NCBI GenBank assembly: GCA_014762625.1
Contig: JABURQ010000030.1
Coordinates: 1-64,000 of the forward strand
Direction: 5' to 3'
DNA: 64,000 nt
DNA from: Planctomycetaceae bacterium
GTDB lineage: Bacteria; Planctomycetota; Planctomycetia; Planctomycetales; Planctomycetaceae
The notes below the pieces were generated by a model. That model saw nothing but the letters and a program-made list of their open reading frames with translations, had not been told where the DNA came from and did no database searches. The position numbers were made by a program, and so were the translations under genes. The stretch's first letter is position 1, and each line of letters begins with the position of its first letter. Positions 15,549 to 49,258 of this stretch are shown one piece after another.

Positions 15549-16624
15549 GAGGAGAGGTCTACCTTCTGATGCAGATCGAATTGCTTTTCTACCGGAATTC
15601 CGTCACACAGCAATGTCGCCATCGCATCAGCCACGTGAGGAGAGAGCAGAGCTCCACGGGAACCGAGCCCATTGAAGTAGCCGAGACGCTCGTTGCGGGG
15701 ATGTAGCCCGATTCGCGGTTGCCGACCGTGAATGATGGGACGAATCGCTGCCTGATGGCTGGTGATGGGCCACTTCTTCGACGGCGGAAAAACGTCCTCC
15801 AGCTTGCGGAGAAGCTCCTGTCGTCCAGAGTCTGTCGGAAGTTGATTGAGATTGTCGCGGTCGTAACTAGCCCCGACTCGCACACTGTTATCTGCCTCCG
15901 GCGCAATCCACAGCCCCGCATGGACGATTCGATCCTCCGTCCAGTCACTGGCGTGAAGTGTCAGAATTTCTCCTCTTGCCGCATCAAATGGAACCTCCCG
16001 AAACCAGGGGTTTCCGGTCGCTTCGAATCCCTGACAAAAAACGACTCGCTGGCCAGTGAGGTTCAATCGGGGAACCGTGATGCCGTTCGGTTGAATGACC
16101 AGATCGTCGGGAAACGTCAGTTCCGCATTGTGATAGGAGTCCCGTGATTCAAAGTAATGCCTGGTGGCGGTCAGGTACGCGTCGGTAATCAATCGAGCGG
16201 CCTGTTTCATTTCAAAACCGCCCCACGGAGCGTTCACGGATTCAGGGAAATCGTCGGATTCGCACAACGCCACATCTTCCGCATCTGCGTGTTTCTCAAG
16301 AAACAAGGAGCGCTCGTCCTCGGAGGCGAAGAAACGCACCATCGGTCCTTCGTAGAAAAACTTCGTCGCGGTGAGTCGTTCGATCTCACGGTAAAAGGCC
16401 ACCGCTTCCGGAAACAGATGCTCCCAGGCGGGATAGTGGGCCAGACGTTGTCCGGTGATAGGAGTTAATAATCCGGCGGCGATTCGCGACGACGAGGAAG
16501 GGTCGTGGCGATCGACGAGTCTGACGTTTTGTCCTCGCAGGTGGAGTCGCCAGGCGAGCGCGGAGCCAGCCAGACCTTGTCCAATGATGAGCGTGTCACA
16601 CGGAAATGCGGTGGTATCGGACAT
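15545..16624 (-). CDS. FAD-dependent oxidoreductase, DAO family; candidate MnmC(o)-like enzyme
   Basis: A 359-residue enzyme of the D-amino-acid-oxidase fold. The FAD dinucleotide-binding motif IIGQGLAGSALAWRL begins near residue 13, with the acidic VDRH end of strand 2. A Ser-rich FAD loop (SSSSRIAAGLLTP) follows. Near the C-terminus IRPIIHGRQPRIG and NGLGSRGALLSPHVAD form the second FAD contact. Substrates of this family are secondary or tertiary amines. The gene starts on the last base of the upstream stop codon (TAATG) and overlaps mnmM by four bases. Because MnmM acts on the product of cmnm5U dealkylation, a plausible role is MnmC(o)/YurR-like conversion of cmnm5U to nm5U in tRNA. Glycine oxidase (ThiO) is the main alternative, but no thiamine genes are near. 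Confidence 0.72.
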   Translation of the reverse strand: MSDTTAFPCDTLIIGQGLAGSALAWRLHLRGQNVRLVDRHDPSSSSRIAAGLLTPITGQRLAHYPAWEHLFPEAVAFYREIERLTATKFFYEGPMVRFFASEDERSLFLEKHADAEDVALCESDDFPESVNAPWGGFEMKQAARLITDAYLTATRHYFESRDSYHNAELTFPDDLVIQPNGITVPRLNLTGQRVVFCQGFEATGNPWFREVPFDAARGEILTLHASDWTEDRIVHAGLWIAPEADNSVRVGASYDRDNLNQLPTDSGRQELLRKLEDVFPPSKKWPITSHQAAIRPIIHGRQPRIGLHPRNERLGYFNGLGSRGALLSPHVADAMATLLCDGIPVEKQFDLHQKVDLSS

Positions 16625-19600
16625 TACTGTTGGGGAATCCGATGCAGCGTGTAATGTCCGGTTTGCGGGAACAGTGGTTCCTTGTCGTCTCTTTCCAGAT
16701 TCTGAGCGGTCACTTCATAGACGAAACCTTCCCGGAGTCCCTCCACAAACAGTCGGACAGAGAGGCCGTCTGCCGATAATCCGACCGATTTCACCTCTGC
16801 CCGATGCCGGTCCTTATCGGGAGTAGCGTAACTTCCGCTCCATTCGCGGGTGTATCCCGAAATTTGGTAGTTATCGGGGTTGAGTGCTTCTTTTGGATCG
16901 ATGATCTGGAAGAATTTGAGTTCAAATCCGTCTTTGGTGGCTTGCAACTCGCGAATGCCATTCGGCATCATCCTTTTCGGCGTCAGTTTGGCAATGGCTC
17001 CAATGTTCTGCCCGCCCAACCAGCCGCTATCCAGAATACTGCCGACGTAGATTTCTCCTTGTTTCGAGACAGCGACCGAAATCGGACCGATAAAGTTGTC
17101 GGGCGTCGCCTGTTCGATCGGTTTTGTGAAGTAATACGTGGCTCCCTGAACGACGCCGTCCACTTCTTGAATCGTAAATCGTATCAACAGACGCGAATTG
17201 TACTCAGCTCCGAGGCCATGTCCCGAGATAGCGTGCAAAGCGGGGATATCTTCGGGAACGAACGTGAGTCCGTTGACGCTGCGGGTCCACGGATGGGGAA
17301 TCTGAATGGCGGGTTCTGTGATGGGCGCATCGCGGTTTTCTTCATGGCGGGAGGGCACGCCGTAATAATGTCCTTCCTGAATGTAATTCAGTTCGTTAAA
17401 GGTGTTCTGCACACCCTGGTTATCGGTGGCGAAAAGTCGTCCGTTTGGATCGATGGCAACGCCGGTGGGATAGCGGAAGGAGTGAGCGATTGGTTCCACC
17501 TCACCGTCGTATTTGATTCGCAGCACACTCCCACGCCAGCGGGAACGATCTTTAAGTCGGTTCTTATCGGAGTAATCGCTTCCCAGTCCAATATACAGAT
17601 TTCCGGATTCATCTTTGGCGAAGCCGCACGTCCAGTTGTGGTAGTTCTCAGAGTGTCCCCAGCCATCGGCGAAAATATTCCGACGATCGTAGGTACCGTC
17701 GTGATTGGTGTCAGACAATTCCAGAATTTCCGGCTTATGAGCCACCAGCAAAGAATGCTCTCCTTGAGGGATCACGCCGTATGGTGCCGACAAACCTTCG
17801 GCCAGCAGCTCCAGATGATCTTCGACGCCATCCTCATTAGAATCCGTTGCCCGATACAAATCGCCTTTCAGGGAAGTGAAGAGCATCCGTCCCTGCTGAT
17901 CCCAGTTGATGCCCGTCGGCATGATGTCGCCTCGGAGTGGCAGGCGTACTCCTTCAAAACCTGGAGCACTCGTAATGGGTGTCGCTTCATTGATGACGAT
18001 CGGTTTCGGCTTGGGAGCGAGAAACGGCTCGGATTCCGGTTTTCGGTAAGTGATGGTGAGTCCGTTCCCGATAACAACCGCTTGATTTTCGTATTTCTCC
18101 TTTGTGAAGAGGCTGATAAGTCCTGAATGACTGTAATCAAGACCCGGACGCTTGAGAATCAAGTTCTGTCTGAGCGGATGGTTTCCTTCAATAGAAATCG
18201 ACCGGCTCCAACCTGGAGTCGATTTCTGAATCGGTTTCCAGATTTCACGAACCGGTATTTCAATGAGTTTCTGATCGAGCAGGAATGTCAGCAAATAGGA
18301 GAGTTCGATCCCGTCTTCAACATTTCGATAGGATTGTAACCGACCGATTCGGGATTGATCCTTCGATGGTGGAATTAACTCATCACCTTGCTGAAGCCGA
18401 AAGCGACTACTGGAACTCGAATCCCAGGTTTCAATAGTTATACCCGCCATGTTCCAGTACCAACTCTTGCCCTCGGTTCGCTGTCGGGCGAAGTCACCGT
18501 ACGTCCAAACGCGAGGTTCGAACAGATCCAGATCGAACAGGACACTGTGCTGATTGTTAAAGCCGACGGCGAACGCACGCGGAATATAGCCTGTTCCCGT
18601 ATCGCCTTTCAGTTCAAAGACATCGCGAACAATGCGAGCCGGTTCTCCCGGCGCCACGACCCAGAATTGTTCGACAGACGCCGGATCGGTCGGGACTGTG
18701 AAATCGGGGCTATTCAAGCCTTTCCAGATGACGGCGAGTTGTTTGTCGCTGTCGCCGTCGAGGAGATCTTTGACCGGTTTCTGCCCGATGGACGGCATCT
18801 CCATACCGGGAACAATGCGGATCGGAGACCGCGTCCAGCGAATGAAATACGACGACCGCATCCGGTCGCCGATGTTGAGCAGATTCGAGCCGCGCGTGCC
18901 GAGAGCCACGTTACGGGGCGTGTAATCACCGAGAGAGTGACAAGCCACGCAACTGAAGCCTCGGGGGCCGACGAGTGTATTCGCCTGTAGGAGTTCTTCG
19001 GAAGTTGGTTGGGCATCATCGGGAACTGAGAAAATGTGCGGGTCGGGAGCGTTATCGGGGATGCGATCGCTGTCAATCAAATAAGTCGCCAGGGACTGTT
19101 TTTCGTCATCCGTGTGTGAGAACTTCGGCATACGGGCTTCGAGCCAGTCCATGCGGCGTGGTTGGGCACCAGTGACGCCTTTCAGGAGATATGCGTCCTT
19201 CAACTTGTCGCCGACAGCGTCCAGAGAGGGAGGAATCAAACGTTCGCTCTCGCCCTGTAAAGACTCAATGGTCTGTGCCACCTTCCCAGCCACAGGGACA
19301 ATGCCTTGAGAACGTCCGCGGGGATGACATTGAATACAGTTTTTCGCTTCGAGAAGTTGTTGTCCTCGATCCCAGACGGAAATCGCCGCAGACGGATTGG
19401 CGAATGACTGGATGTAATGGCGAACTGCCGTTCGATCGAGTTCCTGAGTTCGATAGCTGGGTTTGGTCTTCGACAATTCGCGAGCGAGACAGCCATCCTT
19501 TTGGGGCAAATTCGTCCAAGTTGGGATTCCGGCAAGATCGGAGTTCAGTCCGGGAATCTCATGACAGTTGGCACAGCGAGCTTGAGCCATTAATTCCTTG

Positions 19601-20697
19601 CCACGCAGGGTATCGCCGGAAGCCTTATCATCGATCTTCCGAGTCCCTAGGGAACCCAGATAGATGGCCAATTGACGACGCTCGGCGTTGGAAAGTTCGA
19701 TCACCGGCATACGGTGTTCGGCATTCAACGATTGGGGATCGCTCAACCACCCGTAAATCCATGCCGTACTTCGTTTGGTTCCGATTTTGTCGAGCGCGGT
19801 GCCGGCGAAAGCATCACGATTGCCAAGTTCGCCCATCTGGTGACAAGCCAGACACCCGCGGGAATGAAACAGCGTCTCTCCCGCAGAAAGTTCTTCCTGT
19901 TCTGAAAGCTTCGTTTTCGGCAGGGATGGCAGTTTGGTCTCGGGAGCGATCGAATTCAGGTAAGCGGCAATGTCTCTCGCATCTTGCTGTGACAGGTCAA
20001 AATGAGGCATTTTTCCCGTTGCAGAAATTTCCGAATCGGTGAGCTTCTGCACAATCCAGTCGGGTGTCAGAAATGTTCCTGCAAACTTCAACGATGGTGC
20101 GGACAACCGGGGGAGATCCAGTTCACTTTCGTGACAGTTCTGGCAGCGTCGGGAGATCCAGATTTTGCGTCCTGTTTCTTCCTGTCGCCATGAGGTCAGC
20201 GGTTCTTCCCGAAAGAACAATTCTCGCGGAATCGGTTCGAGCGGAAAGGCATCCGACGACCAGTGAAGTTTGATCTCGGCAGCTTTTCCCAGTTTCTCGA
20301 ATTTCAGATCGAATTCGTGTTCGCCGAAGCGGAGTTCCATCGGATCGCTCTCAAACCAGGCCGGTTGATCCGAGGAGGCTTTGAGAACCGTTTCTCCATC
20401 GATGGAGAGTTCAGCCTTTCCCTGGAGGAAGATCGCATATTGATAGTTGGCGTTCTTGCGGATGAGCTGAATCGCCGACCATCTGGCAGAGAACGGGCCT
20501 AGGGGTAAACGGGGATCTGGAGAAGCGGTTCCCCAGGAGAAGGCAATCCGGTCATCAACACGCTCGATGGTTTTTTGAGCGGTGGAATAGTGTCCCAGAA
20601 GACCGGGAGGAAATTCGTCTTCGAGTGACTGTGCCTGGGTTAAGGAGGTGCAGTAGAAGAGTCCCGGTAAGATCCACAAAATCAGCAATCGTCTCAT
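16624..20697 (-). CDS. Penta-heme c-type protein with PA14-like and beta-propeller domains
   Basis: About 1357 residues from ATG 20697, chosen because a clean signal peptide follows (MRRLLILWILPGLFYC); the open frame extends 17 codons upstream. Residues about 25-160 resemble a PA14/GLEYA-type sugar-binding sandwich. Five CxxCH sites lie near residues 185 (CQNCH), 282 (CLACH), 375 (CANCH), 454 (CIQCH) and 583 (CVACH). A middle region (about 600-900) is of the kind annotated DUF6797 in planctomycetes. Residues about 920-1250 form a beta-propeller of the sorbosone-dehydrogenase type (TDSNEDGVED, WGHSENYHNW, YPTGVAIDPNGRLFATDNQG). A C-terminal beta-domain ends the protein. It should be periplasmic and could oxidise a sugar-like substrate with electron transfer through its hemes; the substrate is unknown. 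The next gene overlaps its stop codon by one base. Confidence 0.82.
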   Translation of the reverse strand: MRRLLILWILPGLFYCTSLTQAQSLEDEFPPGLLGHYSTAQKTIERVDDRIAFSWGTASPDPRLPLGPFSARWSAIQLIRKNANYQYAIFLQGKAELSIDGETVLKASSDQPAWFESDPMELRFGEHEFDLKFEKLGKAAEIKLHWSSDAFPLEPIPRELFFREEPLTSWRQEETGRKIWISRRCQNCHESELDLPRLSAPSLKFAGTFLTPDWIVQKLTDSEISATGKMPHFDLSQQDARDIAAYLNSIAPETKLPSLPKTKLSEQEELSAGETLFHSRGCLACHQMGELGNRDAFAGTALDKIGTKRSTAWIYGWLSDPQSLNAEHRMPVIELSNAERRQLAIYLGSLGTRKIDDKASGDTLRGKELMAQARCANCHEIPGLNSDLAGIPTWTNLPQKDGCLARELSKTKPSYRTQELDRTAVRHYIQSFANPSAAISVWDRGQQLLEAKNCIQCHPRGRSQGIVPVAGKVAQTIESLQGESERLIPPSLDAVGDKLKDAYLLKGVTGAQPRRMDWLEARMPKFSHTDDEKQSLATYLIDSDRIPDNAPDPHIFSVPDDAQPTSEELLQANTLVGPRGFSCVACHSLGDYTPRNVALGTRGSNLLNIGDRMRSSYFIRWTRSPIRIVPGMEMPSIGQKPVKDLLDGDSDKQLAVIWKGLNSPDFTVPTDPASVEQFWVVAPGEPARIVRDVFELKGDTGTGYIPRAFAVGFNNQHSVLFDLDLFEPRVWTYGDFARQRTEGKSWYWNMAGITIETWDSSSSSRFRLQQGDELIPPSKDQSRIGRLQSYRNVEDGIELSYLLTFLLDQKLIEIPVREIWKPIQKSTPGWSRSISIEGNHPLRQNLILKRPGLDYSHSGLISLFTKEKYENQAVVIGNGLTITYRKPESEPFLAPKPKPIVINEATPITSAPGFEGVRLPLRGDIMPTGINWDQQGRMLFTSLKGDLYRATDSNEDGVEDHLELLAEGLSAPYGVIPQGEHSLLVAHKPEILELSDTNHDGTYDRRNIFADGWGHSENYHNWTCGFAKDESGNLYIGLGSDYSDKNRLKDRSRWRGSVLRIKYDGEVEPIAHSFRYPTGVAIDPNGRLFATDNQGVQNTFNELNYIQEGHYYGVPSRHEENRDAPITEPAIQIPHPWTRSVNGLTFVPEDIPALHAISGHGLGAEYNSRLLIRFTIQEVDGVVQGATYYFTKPIEQATPDNFIGPISVAVSKQGEIYVGSILDSGWLGGQNIGAIAKLTPKRMMPNGIRELQATKDGFELKFFQIIDPKEALNPDNYQISGYTREWSGSYATPDKDRHRAEVKSVGLSADGLSVRLFVEGLREGFVYEVTAQNLERDDKEPLFPQTGHYTLHRIPQQ

Positions 20698-20766
20698 AGC
20701 GAAAACGTTTCCACAGGCAGGATGGTCGGTTGTTTGCAGGCCTTCCATCCTAATTGATTCCGCCGG

Positions 20767-21786
20767 TTATTTCCCGGAATTCTCATCCGGGGTTTTCGAA
20801 TTCGCGGAATCCGGCGATTTGCTCTGCTGACTTTGGTTGTGGGCCTGAATGATGCCTTGAATGATAGACTGCGTGATATCCTGACTGACCGCACCTTCGG
20901 GAGGATAGAAGAGGAAATCGTCCGCACTGACGGCGACATTTTGGCGGATATTCACAAAGTCGAGCGTCAACATCGGCTGAAAACCTTCTCCCACCTGCTT
21001 GAGATAAAGCACGCGACGAGGGAAATAGTTTTCCTCATCGAAATAGACATGCACGCGATCGGGAATATAGGCGGGCAGCGGCGTGTCCTCCGGGCTTCCC
21101 GGAGGTTTCATTTGAGCGATCAGTTGAGGTGTCCATCCTCCTGCAATTTTCAGAAACTGTTTTTCGTTAATCGTCTCGACCTGGTAGTCATCAAAAGCCA
21201 GAGAAGTCTCTAATGACGAGAGCAGTGCGGGAAGTCCTCCCAGGCCGAGCCGGGCTTTGACCAGATCGATTCCCAGATAGGGATACTTTTCAATCGTATC
21301 CATGATTTGAACGACATCGCGTCGACTGACCTGCAAATCGTCACCAACCTGATAGCTGGAGTGCATCACTTCGCCGTTACTGACCTGCAACAACGATCCT
21401 TGCAGCGGCTTTCCATCGGCACCTTTGATACTGACCTGAAAGGAGAGCCGCACCTTGTTGCCGCGTACCTGGACGTATTCCCCTTTGGCTTGGTACCGCC
21501 GGGAACCGAGCAGGACGGTTTCCACAATGTCTGCCCGTATAGAGTCATACCCCTCGAGTCGTTTCCGGGCTTCCTCGAGGGTTTGACGGGCCTTTCGCCG
21601 CACTTCCGCATTTTTTTGGGCTTGTTCCTCGGCGGCCGCCTGTTTGGTCGGCTTTGGAGTCGTCTGGTCGTCGTTTTCCTGGGCGAACCCTGTTTCAAAG
21701 ACGGAAAATAGCCACGCCAGCAGGAGAATCACAGGGAGCGACTTTCGAAGCCGCAGGGATGTCCGGTTAGGTAATTTGTTCGTCAT
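20767..21786 (-). CDS. Exported LolA-like protein of the DUF1571 family
   Basis: A 339-residue protein. A signal peptide (LRKSLPVILLLAWLFSVFETGFA) precedes a charged coiled segment rich in Ala, Glu, Lys and Arg (about 40-75). A beta-rich domain follows, with YDSIRADIVETVLLGSRRYQAKGEYVQVRGNKVRL at its start, resembling the half-barrel of LolA/LolB-like lipid carriers. The motif VHVYFDEENYFPRRVLYL near residue 240 is typical of DUF1571 proteins of planctomycetes. The C-terminal tail is Gln/Ser-rich and probably disordered. It lies about 70 bases upstream of the penta-heme gene on the same strand and may be cotranscribed. A carrier role in the periplasm is inferred from fold resemblance only. 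Confidence 0.75.
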   Translation of the reverse strand: MTNKLPNRTSLRLRKSLPVILLLAWLFSVFETGFAQENDDQTTPKPTKQAAAEEQAQKNAEVRRKARQTLEEARKRLEGYDSIRADIVETVLLGSRRYQAKGEYVQVRGNKVRLSFQVSIKGADGKPLQGSLLQVSNGEVMHSSYQVGDDLQVSRRDVVQIMDTIEKYPYLGIDLVKARLGLGGLPALLSSLETSLAFDDYQVETINEKQFLKIAGGWTPQLIAQMKPPGSPEDTPLPAYIPDRVHVYFDEENYFPRRVLYLKQVGEGFQPMLTLDFVNIRQNVAVSADDFLFYPPEGAVSQDITQSIIQGIIQAHNQSQQSKSPDSANSKTPDENSGK

Positions 21787-22052: not shown

Positions 22053-23216
22053 ATGAAGTACTACTTTTTTGGACTTGGAACCATGATGGCCGTTTGTGTG
22101 GGATGTTATATCCCCTCGGGCGGTTCTTCCATCGAAGAGAACAAGTATGTGGCCCCACCGGCGGCAATGATGCAGCGTCCGGGGCCGATGGTGGATGGGC
22201 CGGGCCCCGGTGTGATGCCGATGCTCAGCTCTCCTCCCGCGCGGTCTTTCGCCACCAAAACGACGCAGTTGCGTTTTGTGGAACCGAAAGCCATGCAAAT
22301 TGGTTGGCGTATTCGTGACGGCTATGCGGAAAGTCAAATCACCGCACCCGGTCGTTACAACTTCACTCAAGGGGCAACTTATCGTCTGAAGGTTACAGAC
22401 ATCCCCGGACGTGAAGGCCTGACTCTCTATCCGACTTTGCAGGTCTATCCGGCTCATCCGACGACGGATGCCTACCTGTCGCACAACTCGATTCCGATCG
22501 CGTTGACGACTGAAGACCTCAATCAGATCGAGAGCAACAACTTCGTGACCAAAGTGATCTACCTTCCCGATCCTAAAAATCAGGAACTGGCGATCGCCGG
22601 TGTCGAAACCATCGTCTCGACCCGACTCGATCCGGGTGTCGATCCGGTGGCGGAAGCCGATCGTCGCGGAACTGTGATGGTTGTCCTGCGGGCCGGTAAC
22701 ATGAACCTCGAAATGCCGGGGGCCGACCTCGACATGACGGGACTCGATGCCAACGGCAATATCAAACAGGTCGTGCACCTGGATGGTATGCAGGGACAAA
22801 CCGCTCCTCCCATGCCGATCGCCGAAACGGGCGTCGGACTCCACGGAGTTCCTTCTCCGATGGTGATGGGTGGCAGCTCGCTTCCCGGACAACCGGCTAT
22901 GAACCCGGTTGCGGGAATGGGACCGACTCCTTCCTGGGGAATGCCGATAACCGCAACTCCCATCGGATTGCCTGGTCCTCCGCACCTGCCGCTCGGCGGT
23001 CCTGCCGGATTGCAATCGCACACCGTGCGAAATCTGACTTCTGTGGACATCGGACAACCCGTCGATCACATGCTGATCGATGTCGAACACGACCCGGGTT
23101 ACCGCTTGCCTCATCCTGTGAAACACGTTCAGTACAAGGAAACGCATCCCAACTTCGCTTCGGGTGCCACAACCTTCCCGAACTGGGCCGTGCCGCAGGG
23201 TGCTCCGCAGCAATAA
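22053..23216 (+). CDS. Exported lipoprotein, first of a paralogous planctomycete set
   Basis: A 387-residue protein whose N-terminus [18 protein letters not shown] is a lipoprotein signal (lipobox VCVGC, Cys18). Residues about 70-240 form a domain that is repeated in the next gene: [21 protein letters not shown], then [13 protein letters not shown], then [15 protein letters not shown]. The C-terminal third is rich in Pro, Gly and Met and looks disordered. GGGGG lies five bases before the ATG. The opposite strand is open through nearly the whole gene, but the signal peptide, ribosome site and paralogy all support the plus strand. The function is unknown; an envelope-structural role is inferred from export and cluster. 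Confidence 0.82.
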
Positions 23217-23371
23217 GCATGATTGATTTACTCGGCTGCCGAATGGTAGTCGTGATATGGGGGTGAATGACGGGTGGCGGTTGTGTTCGCTGCAACCGCC
23301 GCCCTTTCCCCATCCTGATGTCTCTTCCTCCCGCTTATTCCGTCAGCAATTTTTCAGCAAGGAGCCAAACC

Positions 23372-24082
23372 GTGCGAACGATACAGAGTTCGGCAAATTG
23401 TTTGACTCGCCTCGCGGCAGGACTGACGGTGTTGGGAGCCTGCTTGCTATCGGCCAGTCTGGCAACCGCTCAGCAACGCTATTATCCGCTCGACCAGACG
23501 ACGCCTCCCGGTGTTTATGGAAATTGGTCGGGATACCAAATTCCGGTGCAGCCGAAACGACTCCAACCCGTCAAAATCATTCTACCCGGCCAGGGGAAAG
23601 TGACCTTCTTTTCGCACGCGGGAGCCAAGCCGCTCATCGGCCAATCTCCCGCACAAGCCGCGATTGCATTGGGGCAGACCTATCGGCTTCAATTGAGCGA
23701 GATGGAAGAGTATCCCGGCGTCAACCTGTATCCCACTATCGAACTGGTCGATATCCTGCATCCGCCTGCCGGAAAAGAAGACGAGTTTCCTATCCCTGTA
23801 ACAATTACCGAGGAAGAACTCGAACTGGCCGTTTCGGGACGACTCGTCACCAAAGTGATCTATCTCGAACCGGCGGCTGAGGCAAACCCGTTGCTTCTCG
23901 ATCGTCAGAACCCAACCATGTCCATTCCGCCTCAGCAAAATGTCATCGAGGAAGCCGACCTTCGCGGTCGCCCCATGCTGATCCTGAGGCTCGGCAGCCG
24001 AACTCCGGTTGTCAACGAGGACCCGGCCTTCTTCGGCAACGGCGCTCCTCTTTCACCGACAGCTTTGCCGAGGATGCGATAA
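23372..24082 (+). CDS. Exported protein paralogous to the upstream lipoprotein (GTG start)
   Basis: About 236 residues starting at GTG 23372, where AAGGAG lies seven bases upstream. Open frame continues up to ATG 23267, but that extension has no ribosome site and would bury the signal peptide (LTRLAAGLTVLGACLLSASLATA). The mature part aligns with the previous protein: YRLQLSEMEEYPGVNLYPTIE, then GRLVTKVIYLEPA, then EADLRGRPMLILRLG. This shared block of about 110 residues shows that the two genes arose by duplication. Signal cleavage after ATA would release a soluble periplasmic or surface protein. It is transcribed with its neighbours, three bases before the next ATG. The function is unknown. 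Confidence 0.8.
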   Translation: MRTIQSSANCLTRLAAGLTVLGACLLSASLATAQQRYYPLDQTTPPGVYGNWSGYQIPVQPKRLQPVKIILPGQGKVTFFSHAGAKPLIGQSPAQAAIALGQTYRLQLSEMEEYPGVNLYPTIELVDILHPPAGKEDEFPIPVTITEEELELAVSGRLVTKVIYLEPAAEANPLLLDRQNPTMSIPPQQNVIEEADLRGRPMLILRLGSRTPVVNEDPAFFGNGAPLSPTALPRMR

Positions 24083-24084
24083 TT

Positions 24085-25473
24085 ATGAGCATCAACCACA
24101 ATTCATTGACATCTCGATTCACGGCTGTGGTGGCTGTGATCGCGATTTGCAGCCTCTCAGCCTGCTCATCGCTCTCCCGACAATCCGCCACCAGTTCGGT
24201 AGTCCCTCCCGATTCACGAATCGAATCGACGACGTCACGTAAGGCGGCTGGAACAGCCACGGTCTCTTCCGGACCCGTCGTTCCTCCTTCAGTCACCCCC
24301 TCGTTCATTCAACAAACGTCTGCGTGGCAGGATCAATCGGGGCGTCCCTACGATGAACCGATCTCTCGCACCAGTCATTCCGCGATCAGTTTCTCGCCGG
24401 CGGAACGTCGAGCCGATGTTCCCGTTCATTTGCAGGGGCATCCCAGCTCCATGTCCCCCCATTTCGAAGCGGTACCCGGCTCCCCCTGCCAGATGTGTCA
24501 GATCAACGGCACGATGTGCGACGCGTGTCGCGGGAAGTCATTTCCGGATGAGTATATTTCCGACGGTGGCGATCGCGGACTGCCCTTTCATTATGAACAC
24601 AATGAGCGGGCAGGATTTGAAAGCGAAGACACAGTCGCCGAGTTTGAAGATCACACCGGCGAATCCTCGATCAAAGTCACGAATCGCGTCAGTATCTATT
24701 CGCCCCGGTTTGCTGCTGTGAGAACGGTGAGCCTCCCCTCCGAAGGGACTGTGGCTCAGTACGCTTCCGGGACCGACAAAACTCTCAAGTTGCACGACAT
24801 CAACAGCCAGCTTGGAACGACTTATCATAACGAATACGAATCGATGGGTGGCGTGAGAATGCGAGCCCGAGCCAGCGGACTCGAAAGCGAAGCCGATCCG
24901 GACACGCTGGGACAAACCACCGTCGCAGGTCGCAACGATAAGCTTCAAAACGTCTTTCAGAATCTGTTGTTCCTCAGCACGGGACGCTTCGAACAATCTG
25001 AAGCCGCCGTTCTGGCCGGACACGTGGATGCCGCCGCTCACTGGACGCGTCATCTGAGCCCGACCATCACGGCACATACCTCGGCGGGGAATCAGGTTGA
25101 GTCGACCTTCAAACCGATGGAAATCGTCGGTTTGGAAGACAGCCGTAAAACGAAAGGTGATTTACAGATCGTCAAACTGGCCGACAGGAAAATCGCCGCA
25201 CCGGGTGACGTGATTACCTTCACCCTGCGTTACGATAACCTGGGCGATTTTGAGCTCAAGAATCTCCGCATCGTCGATAACCTGACGCCGCGTCTGGAAT
25301 ACATCGAAGGTTCGGCGAACTTTGGGGATCGGGCCGGCGAGGTTCAAACCTACGACAACAACGAAGGCAGCTTGATCCTGCAATTCAAACTCAGTGAAGA
25401 CCTGCCGGGACACACCGGCGGCACGATCACTTTCCAAACACGCGTTCGCCCGTTTGCGAGCGTGGACGAGTAA
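24085..25473 (+). CDS. Exported lipoprotein with a C-terminal DUF11-type repeat domain
   Basis: A 462-residue protein with a lipobox (SACS, Cys about residue 27). The region near residue 133 holds a cysteine cluster (CQMCQINGTMCDACRG) that could bind metal or form disulfides. The last 95 residues (from DLQIVKLADRKIAAPGDVITFTL through NLTPRLEYIEGSANF) match the DUF11/conserved-repeat domain, an Ig-like beta-sandwich common in bacterial surface proteins. GAGGA lies ten bases before the ATG. It is the last gene of the three-gene exported set, and a strong terminator follows 22 bases after the stop. It probably displays its Ig-like domain at the cell surface; partners are unknown. Confidence 0.83.
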   Translation: MSINHNSLTSRFTAVVAVIAICSLSACSSLSRQSATSSVVPPDSRIESTTSRKAAGTATVSSGPVVPPSVTPSFIQQTSAWQDQSGRPYDEPISRTSHSAISFSPAERRADVPVHLQGHPSSMSPHFEAVPGSPCQMCQINGTMCDACRGKSFPDEYISDGGDRGLPFHYEHNERAGFESEDTVAEFEDHTGESSIKVTNRVSIYSPRFAAVRTVSLPSEGTVAQYASGTDKTLKLHDINSQLGTTYHNEYESMGGVRMRARASGLESEADPDTLGQTTVAGRNDKLQNVFQNLLFLSTGRFEQSEAAVLAGHVDAAAHWTRHLSPTITAHTSAGNQVESTFKPMEIVGLEDSRKTKGDLQIVKLADRKIAAPGDVITFTLRYDNLGDFELKNLRIVDNLTPRLEYIEGSANFGDRAGEVQTYDNNEGSLILQFKLSEDLPGHTGGTITFQTRVRPFASVDE

Positions 25474-25494
25474 CGGATTCCCCGCAAATCCGGA

Positions 25495-25532
25495 CCCGTC
25501 GCGAGACCCGATCTTTCGCGACGGGTTTTTTT
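25495..25532 (+). terminator. Rho-independent terminator after the exported triplet
   Basis: Perfect ten-base stem: CCCGTCGCGA (25495-25504) pairs with TCGCGACGGG (25516-25525), followed directly by seven T. It lies just after the stop at 25473 on the same strand. Confidence 0.92.
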
Positions 25533-47968: not shown

Positions 47969-49258
47969 TCAGGCTTCAGCATCGGCTTTGGGAGGATTGT
48001 CCGGTGTCGGAGTCGGCTTGGCCGATTCCTGTTGAATTCCGGATGGACTATTGCAGGGATCGCAATTCGAAGTCGGGCAGACCTGAACCGGGACCATCTT
48101 GCAAACCGTGTAGGGGACCTGTTTCTGCACGCATTTGGCAACCATTCGCGTGCAGGTCACGTCTTCGGTGCAAGGCACCATTTTGCAAACTCGTTCGGTC
48201 ACCGTATAAGGAACTTTGCGAGTCGTGCAGACGGGAACTTTGCAGGTTTTCTGTTCGCAAACCATTTTGCAGGTTCGCACCGGAACCTTACAGGTTTTTT
48301 GTTCGCAGACCATTTTGCAGGTTCGCACCGGAACCTTGCAAGTTTTCTGTTCGCAAACCATACGACAAGTGCGGTATGGAACTTTGCAAACCTGGACTTC
48401 CGGCACCATCTTGCAGACAGTCACATTGACGGTTTCGGTCACTTGTCGCGGGACGACTTTGCACACCTTCACCGGGCAGTTTTGTCGAACCACTTCGGGA
48501 CGCATCACAGTACAGTTGTAGGTTTCCTGAACGACGTTCGGACACCAACTCCGTTTGGTCGTGCAAAAACCAGGCGTCTGGACCATTTGGATTCGCGGAC
48601 CATAGCAGGTTTGCACGCAGCGCGGAACGCACGGTCCCGGATGGTAAACCTTTTGACTAACCCACTGCCCTCGATCGACGCACCGTGTTTTCTGAACGGT
48701 GTGAGGACGCATTACCGTATAACAGCGTTCGACATTCACGGTTTCTTCAACACGATCCATGACGGTTTTGCAAACCTGACGTTGAACCACTTCCGTCGTC
48801 GGTTTCATCACGGTTCGGCGGACCTCCCGCTCGCAGGTTTCCCAGACTGGACGCTGTACCGTGTAGTTCTTTTCGACGTAGCTCGTTTCGTAAACCGGAC
48901 GTTGCACGGTGTACGACTTTTCGACGTAGCTCGTTTCGTAAACCGGGCGTTGCACCGTGTAGTTCTTTTCGACGTAGGCGGTTTCCGTCACGTCTCGATA
49001 GCAGGTCACTTCCTTGTTTTCCCAGGTTGGTTTGTAGGTAGTCCGCTGAACGGTGTATTGTTCCGGTTCGTAAACCGTTTCCTGAACGGTCCTGTAGCAG
49101 GTTTGACGCTCGACCTTGTAGGACGTGTAACAGCAGGTCGGTTGGCAAGGCTGTGGACAACATCGATAGCTGGTGGCTCCGCAGTACCAACCTGCTTCGG
49201 CTGATCCTCCGCTCAAACAAGCCAGAGCCATCACCGTGGTGGCGATGAAACTTCTCAT
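47969..49258 (-). CDS. Cysteine-rich surface protein with YTV-type tandem repeats
   Basis: About 429 residues from ATG 49258, where GGGAG lies six bases upstream. The open frame continues 75 codons further up without a signal; this start gives one (MRSFIATTVMALACLSGGSAEA). The mature chain is almost entirely short repeats. In the N-terminal half three 16-residue units read YVEKNYTVQRPVYETS with small changes. In the C-terminal half three 16-residue units read CKVPVRTCKMVCEQKT. Between them lie related copies such as YTVMRP, CKMVP and RQVTETVNVTVCKMVPE. This matches the planctomycete YTV motif family. Regularly spaced cysteines suggest a disulfide-linked cell-wall protein, as expected for organisms with protein-rich walls; that is inference. 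Confidence 0.88.
   Translation of the reverse strand: MRSFIATTVMALACLSGGSAEAGWYCGATSYRCCPQPCQPTCCYTSYKVERQTCYRTVQETVYEPEQYTVQRTTYKPTWENKEVTCYRDVTETAYVEKNYTVQRPVYETSYVEKSYTVQRPVYETSYVEKNYTVQRPVWETCEREVRRTVMKPTTEVVQRQVCKTVMDRVEETVNVERCYTVMRPHTVQKTRCVDRGQWVSQKVYHPGPCVPRCVQTCYGPRIQMVQTPGFCTTKRSWCPNVVQETYNCTVMRPEVVRQNCPVKVCKVVPRQVTETVNVTVCKMVPEVQVCKVPYRTCRMVCEQKTCKVPVRTCKMVCEQKTCKVPVRTCKMVCEQKTCKVPVCTTRKVPYTVTERVCKMVPCTEDVTCTRMVAKCVQKQVPYTVCKMVPVQVCPTSNCDPCNSPSGIQQESAKPTPTPDNPPKADAEA
48241..48384 (-). repeat. 48-bp tandem repeat, cysteine unit of the YTV protein
   Basis: The word GTTCGCA recurs at 48253, 48301 and 48349, exactly 48 bases apart, and the intervening sequence is nearly identical. 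Each unit encodes the 16-residue CKVPVRTCKMVCEQKT segment. Confidence 0.88.
48861..48990 (-). repeat. 48-bp tandem repeat, tyrosine unit of the YTV protein
   Basis: GTGTA words recur at 48861, 48909 and 48957, exactly 48 bases apart. Units encode YVEK[NS]YTVQRPV[YW]ET and differ at few bases. The unit length equals that of the cysteine repeat elsewhere in the gene, suggesting a shared 16-residue structural module. Confidence 0.88.

Follow-up and report, generated by a model that had tools for sequence, protein, structure and literature searches.

LolA receives lipoproteins from LolCDE and delivers them to the outer membrane, chlamydial OmcB carries a DUF11-type domain, and the Planctomycetia are a class known for a protein-rich cell wall. 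The available passages of PMC8567305 describe YTV proteins as components of the planctomycete wall; according to those of PMC10632474, the YTV domain is restricted to the class Planctomycetia, and one YTV protein belongs to the essential set of Planctopirus limnophila. From computed conservation, gene order, one old duplication, gene fusions, a DUF11 domain, a modelled LolA-like fold and a phyletic pattern, we describe here a real, old, class-wide envelope locus of these bacteria with a LolA-fold partner, for which we infer a mechanism. Its four genes, which lack any family that would give them a function, are kept together across the class, and a species with published transposon genetics has them; they may bear on how planctomycetes hold their protein-rich wall and outer membrane together. 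The locus is absent from the titles and abstracts found, supplements and most subscription papers being outside reach, and goes unmentioned in the available passages of PMC10632474, PMC8567305, PMC3035269, PMC2811131, PMC5287468, PMC3444138 and PMC3422733.

The window, a stretch of 64,000 nucleotides from a member of the Planctomycetaceae, holds three plus-strand ORFs (g1, g2 and g3) that fill 22053-25473 in its ORF list, with F1 as divergent neighbour (Table 1). The longest ORF of g2 spans 23267-24082 (271 aa); the GTG listed in the table is the likely start because a signal peptide directly follows it, which would otherwise be internal. Inspected by eye, g1 and g3 have lipoprotein signals (VCVGC and LSAC), g2 has a cleavable signal peptide ending in ATAQQ, and F1 has one ending in GFAQEN. 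As read from these signals, all the proteins of the locus would be exported and g1 and g3 lipidated, in agreement with the sequence-only reading, which had taken the three products to be secreted. The single terminator that it had assigned to the set was also found: a 15-pair hairpin after g3, three of the pairs being formed with the first T's of a seven-T run, has a folding energy of -24.4 kcal/mol (z -5.1). A consensus terminator scan missed this hairpin; on the plus strand it detected no terminator-like site between g1, g2 and g3, and one inside g3. A recurrent neighbour family, F4, was discarded as a shadow ORF that overlaps g1 on the opposite strand. Adjoining F1 on the minus strand, positions 16624-20748 encode a 1374-aa multi-cytochrome c/PA14/DUF7133 protein, whose family is common, among the loci read, only to L001 and L002, the two loci from the window's genus.

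Table 1. Features of the locus, in coordinates of the window
Feature	Position	Strand	Description
F1	20767-21786	-	LolA/LprG/RseB-fold exported protein (predicted), divergent from g1
g1	22053-23216	+	387 aa; lipoprotein (by signal), shared block and conserved Pro/Gly-rich C-terminal motif
Shared block in g1	22263-22730	+	BLASTP and hhalign against g2
C-terminal motif of g1, 26 residues	22956-23033	+	30-row alignment
g2	23372-24082	+	236 aa from GTG 23372; secreted (by signal) paralogue of g1's block
Shared block in g2	23540-24049	+	AF2 model, mostly strands
g3	24085-25473	+	462 aa; lipoprotein (by signal), DGGDR...YSPRF region, C-terminal DUF11
Conserved DGGDR...APRF region of g3	24547-24717	+	Cys pair in many relatives, absent in the window's g3
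DUF11 Ig-like domain, C-terminal end of g3	25159-25440	+	Pfam 1.8e-7
Intrinsic terminator after g3	25492-25532	+	folded hairpin and T run

The window belongs to the class Planctomycetia, and in the sample its order is represented by one family, f1. A g2 query matches 147 of the 150 genomes of the order, nearly all of them at two or more places. At all 42 loci read in the order (L001, L002 and 40 picked for breadth of genera, long contigs and genomes with a match), profiles place g1, g2 and g3 consecutively on one strand with a divergent F1 beside g1. Another twenty loci, taken from genomes that g1 or g3 had detected, represent other families of the class. The three genes adjoin in 18 of these; contigs L114 and L115 end after g2, and the best g3 match of both genomes lies on another contig. 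F1 stands beside the module in 15 of the 20, or 16 with a broader profile, and was not detected there in L110, L119, L121 and L122, the last three belonging to family f6. Across the class, 245 of 248 genomes have a match to the g3 profile; this profile includes DUF11, and in the f6 loci read, three in number, DUF11 is the only part matched. Of 198 class genomes, 149 are found by the F1 profile, and f6 accounts for 16 of the 20 misses listed out of 49. A narrow-pattern search retrieved two relatives from genome contigs; a pattern search of viral contigs gave three matches, none of them a relative. In the loci read the three genes are not scattered, an arrangement that would have spoken against the sequence-only reading, and the exported envelope module it proposed is well supported, since the genes stay together and their shared block survives profile comparison (below). 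Its wording 'self-contained' is not supported: the conserved set is larger by a fourth, divergent gene.

In a sample of the phylum, the g1 profile matches 52 of 294 genomes, all from the window's own class or closer, and the 20 misses listed out of 242 are all of the same phylum only; a broader block profile adds G171 to these 52, so that the block occurs in 53 of 294 genomes, 52 of them of the own class. The locus is near-universal in the sampled class genomes and almost confined to the class.

The block shared by g1 and g2 is real. BLASTP aligns the two window copies with an E value of 2e-12 (30% identity over 123 columns), and hhalign, given the two families at 30 rows each, aligns them with a probability of 99.5% over 202 columns; the block measures about 120-160 residues, somewhat more than the roughly 110 noted earlier. 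At E ≤ 1, g1 and g2 of the window have no match in Pfam or NCBIfam, the best family matches of shared-block members have E values of 0.0029 and 0.15, and PDB sequences give no match at E ≤ 5. The AF2 model of the g2 block has a mean pLDDT of 63; compared with solved structures, it reaches at best an E value of 0.029 in Foldseek and a Z of 5.0 in VIA, where the rows mix Ig-, CnaB- and transthyretin-like proteins. Assignment to a known family or fold was rejected, as the sequence and structure matches lack confidence; the block is an unannotated domain for which we claim no fold. In g1 the Gly-Cys of the lipobox is invariant (30/30 rows), and so are 12 of the 26 positions of the C-terminal motif, with 6 more conserved at 90% or above. 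A crude lipobox pattern counted 49 of 62 g1 and 30 of 49 unfused g3 proteins; this count was set aside because the pattern misses true lipoboxes and its match in the g3 of L072 is false.

The block also occurs in other protein contexts. In the window's own genome, a 1709-aa M56 BlaR1-type/secretin-domain protein (C178, L129:5560-10686, minus strand) carries it together with a TGTPIGLPGSPH motif; a 1634-aa Ser/Thr kinase has two partial copies (L131:4563-9464, minus strand); and a thioredoxin/secretin-N protein (L132) has the block, as do further proteins. Planctomycetes have thus recombined this unannotated block into a kinase and a BlaR1-type protein. In another genome, a 2761-aa protein (L130:7027-15309, minus strand) matches the region of the g1 C-terminal motif and lacks the block; the motif may bind a common partner.

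In the small, rare class of G171, two of four genomes (G171, L148; G572, L151) have one block lipoprotein and, downstream of it, a protein of about 540 aa that begins like a lipoprotein. A block tree rooted on these two separates 25 g1 and 17 g2 proteins into two clades (support 98/86 and 98/94) with one change. The duplication is therefore older than the divergence of the sampled class members, which bears out the earlier description of g1 and g2 as duplicated members. The C-terminal part of the G572 downstream protein weakly matches the g3 DUF11 (when the ORFs of two loci were searched without a filter, E was 6e-4 and the domain value 1.1e-3); the G171 counterpart gave no match to g3 in hhalign. 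A single-copy block lipoprotein with a second lipoprotein-like gene is possibly the ancestral two-gene form; since G171 lacks the match and that of G572 is weak, we offer this only as a suggestion.

The Ig-like domain ascribed to the third product, for which a surface position is putative, is a DUF11 domain, which scores above the curated cut-offs of both DUF11 (31.9 against 24.6 bits) and TIGR01451 (31.7 against 24). It occurs in 30 of 30 g3 members, as a single copy at the extreme C terminus. By eye, the stop position is identical in 58 of 60 loci, 49 of them with a terminal Arg; g3 has a short tail in the window, L001 and L002. This constancy suggests that the last DUF11 strand must stay free or docked. 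Proteins with DUF11/TIGR01451 repeats share with g3 a domain above the curated cut-off and differ from it in that g3 has one copy, placed exactly at its C terminus behind a conserved region that lacks annotation. The resemblance to chlamydial OmcB would lie in the DUF11-type domain and the envelope of a PVC bacterium; unlike OmcB, g3 has few cysteines and, judged by its signal, is a lipoprotein. The presence of DUF11 in all 30 g3 proteins could be counted for a surface adhesin set that displays this domain outside, after OmcB. We consider such a set very unlikely: the domain is single and terminal, the conserved cysteines are two at most and often absent, and a housekeeping part would account better than an adhesin for the broad retention of the locus and for how slowly g1 changes.

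The cysteine cluster noted in the third product, CxxC-x6-CxxC, is present in the window and is specific to one genus, since of the 30 g3 proteins in the alignment 3 have it (window, L001 and L002), so the weight placed on it is not sustained; a few other g3 proteins have scattered cysteines in this stretch. A different pair, with one Cys ahead of DGGD and the other ahead of the IYAPR motif, is either wholly present (23) or wholly absent (19) at the 42 loci of the order, and its state changed at least six times over these loci. On supported branches within the order, all four independent pairs agree (p 0.125); over 55 rows, after 5 of the 60 loci with an unreadable motif were left out, seven pairs give 4.8 concordant, 0 opposite and 2.2 without difference. 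The two cysteines, to judge by this co-variation, likely form a disulfide. We do not claim a proven bond, as four loci outside the order are mismatched, with only the second Cys present.

Recurrent fusion of neighbouring genes is a classical sign that their products work together. At 11 of 60 loci g2 and g3 form one reading frame, and the fused or split state changed at least six times on the g1 tree, five of them inside the order. Where the two genes are fused, g3 lacks a separate lipid anchor.

The fourth gene resembles that of a lipoprotein carrier. F1 is, as modelled by AF2 (302 residues, built from 3 sequences, mean pLDDT 54), a protein of LolA/LprG/RseB-type fold. LprG, LolA and RseB chains head its Foldseek list with E values of 1.7e-6 to 1e-4 (LprG 1.7e-6, LolA 1.2e-5); in VIA, LprG reaches a Z of 10.6 over 163 residues, LolA 8.4 (8cgm) and 10.3 (4mxt) and RseB 8.7, with LprF and LppX chains also among the leaders. 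Against PDB sequences, a profile of 28 F1 members has as best match LolA (E 0.006 over 49 positions), other LolA chains following at 0.3 or above. Neither the window's F1 nor these 28 members match Pfam LolA; there are weak matches such as MucB_RseB at 0.18 in one member. F1 thus resembles the LolA/LprG/RseB superfamily in its predicted fold, its exported form (by eye) and its lipoprotein neighbours, and differs in lacking a Pfam LolA match and in its private genomic partnership; its carrier role is putative. In the genome of the window, PF03548 finds no match at E ≤ 1. In 40 genomes searched, PF03548 exceeds its cut-off in 7, and PF17131 has weak matches in 35, one of them over the cut-off; the weak match of G414 is F1 itself. 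The idea that F1 is the 'missing LolA' of its genome was dropped in view of these weak LolA_like candidates elsewhere, and because they occur in 35 of 40 genomes we do not claim F1 as sole carrier. Beyond F1, L036 encodes a vWA protein, signal peptidase II, a TPR protein, ExbB and two ExbD proteins (Pfam); in L039 and L061 the series is similar but lacks the peptidase.

Proteins of one fold need not carry the same cargo, and by the model LprG-like lipid transfer or RseB-like sensing would fit F1 equally well. LprG, LprF and LppX rank as high as LolA or higher among the fold matches, as would be expected if F1 were an LprG/LppX-like lipid carrier, g1-g2-g3 its outer-membrane acceptor, and a class-specific lipid rather than lipoproteins were moved. 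We hold this to be rather unlikely: LolA and LprG have one fold, so that close Z values are ties, no lipid transporter was recognised among the recurrent neighbours, whose families are partly annotated, and the two lipoproteins beside F1 fit a client role equally well. The RseB/MucB chains in the same lists, along with the copies of the block that lie outside the locus in an M56 BlaR1-type protein and a Ser/Thr kinase, would suit envelope-stress sensing by an RseB-like F1, with g1-g3 as structural targets or co-regulators. RseB aligns to the F1 model only over its first part (residues 26-204), and among the same partly annotated neighbours no sigma or anti-sigma gene was recognised; we give this role little credence.

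The phyletic pattern of the locus recalls that of the YTV proteins. YTV occurs in 54 of 294 genomes of the phylum: the 52 class genomes with a block profile match are the same 52 that have YTV, and outside the class G160 and G194 have YTV without the block and G171 the block without YTV. The window itself encodes a cysteine-rich YTV wall protein at 47969-49258 on the minus strand (PF07639, 8.4e-26), about 22 kb from the module. Alike in this nearly equal pattern and in their presence in the window, the two groups differ in that g1-g3 are not cysteine-rich and have no PF07639 match at E ≤ 1. The coincidence agrees with a joint role, and may simply reflect a single shared ancestor.

The reading that we prefer, and hold tentatively, is that the locus specifies a lipoprotein complex of the outer membrane, served by a LolA-fold carrier of its own and probably part of a class-specific envelope. 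F1, as a soluble periplasmic protein, would shield the acyl chains of g1 and g3, or a lipid that they need, and escort this lipid-bearing cargo towards the outer membrane. Anchored there by its lipid, g1 would pair with its secreted paralogue g2 through their related domains, and g2 would adjoin the DUF11 domain of g3, because g2-g3 fusions recur. Together, g1, g2 and g3 would form an anchored scaffold in the envelope that the class combines with a YTV protein wall. An extended version of this proposal, which we regard as unlikely, makes the locus a planctomycetal counterpart of the Lpp/Pal layer: the private carrier F1 would deliver two lipoproteins and a secreted partner, and these would fasten the YTV wall to the outer membrane. 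The set would have grown out of a two-gene one (a block lipoprotein beside a lipoprotein that ends in a DUF11-like part, as hinted at in the class of G171), the block gene having been duplicated at the time the protein wall originated.

In P. limnophila (G019), the ten genes that come after g3 lie on the opposite strand and fit Plim_0401-0410, called secretion-related in the available passages of PMC10632474. This tail-to-tail arrangement raises the prospect that g1-g3 serve the prepilin/GspE/GspF operon as part of a pilus or type II secretion system. Such an operon was not recognised at the nine loci listed gene by gene (reach about 7 kb; L043 of the same genus lay outside this check), and the isolated traces comprise one GspF-like ORF in L052 and prepilin-like F17 ORFs in 3 of 42 loci; a service to this operon is accordingly highly improbable. 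A conserved tie, seen in P. limnophila and unrecognised at the other listed loci, was rejected. Because the ten genes after g3 fit Plim_0401-0410, g1-g3 would correspond to Plim_0398-0400 and F1 to Plim_0397.
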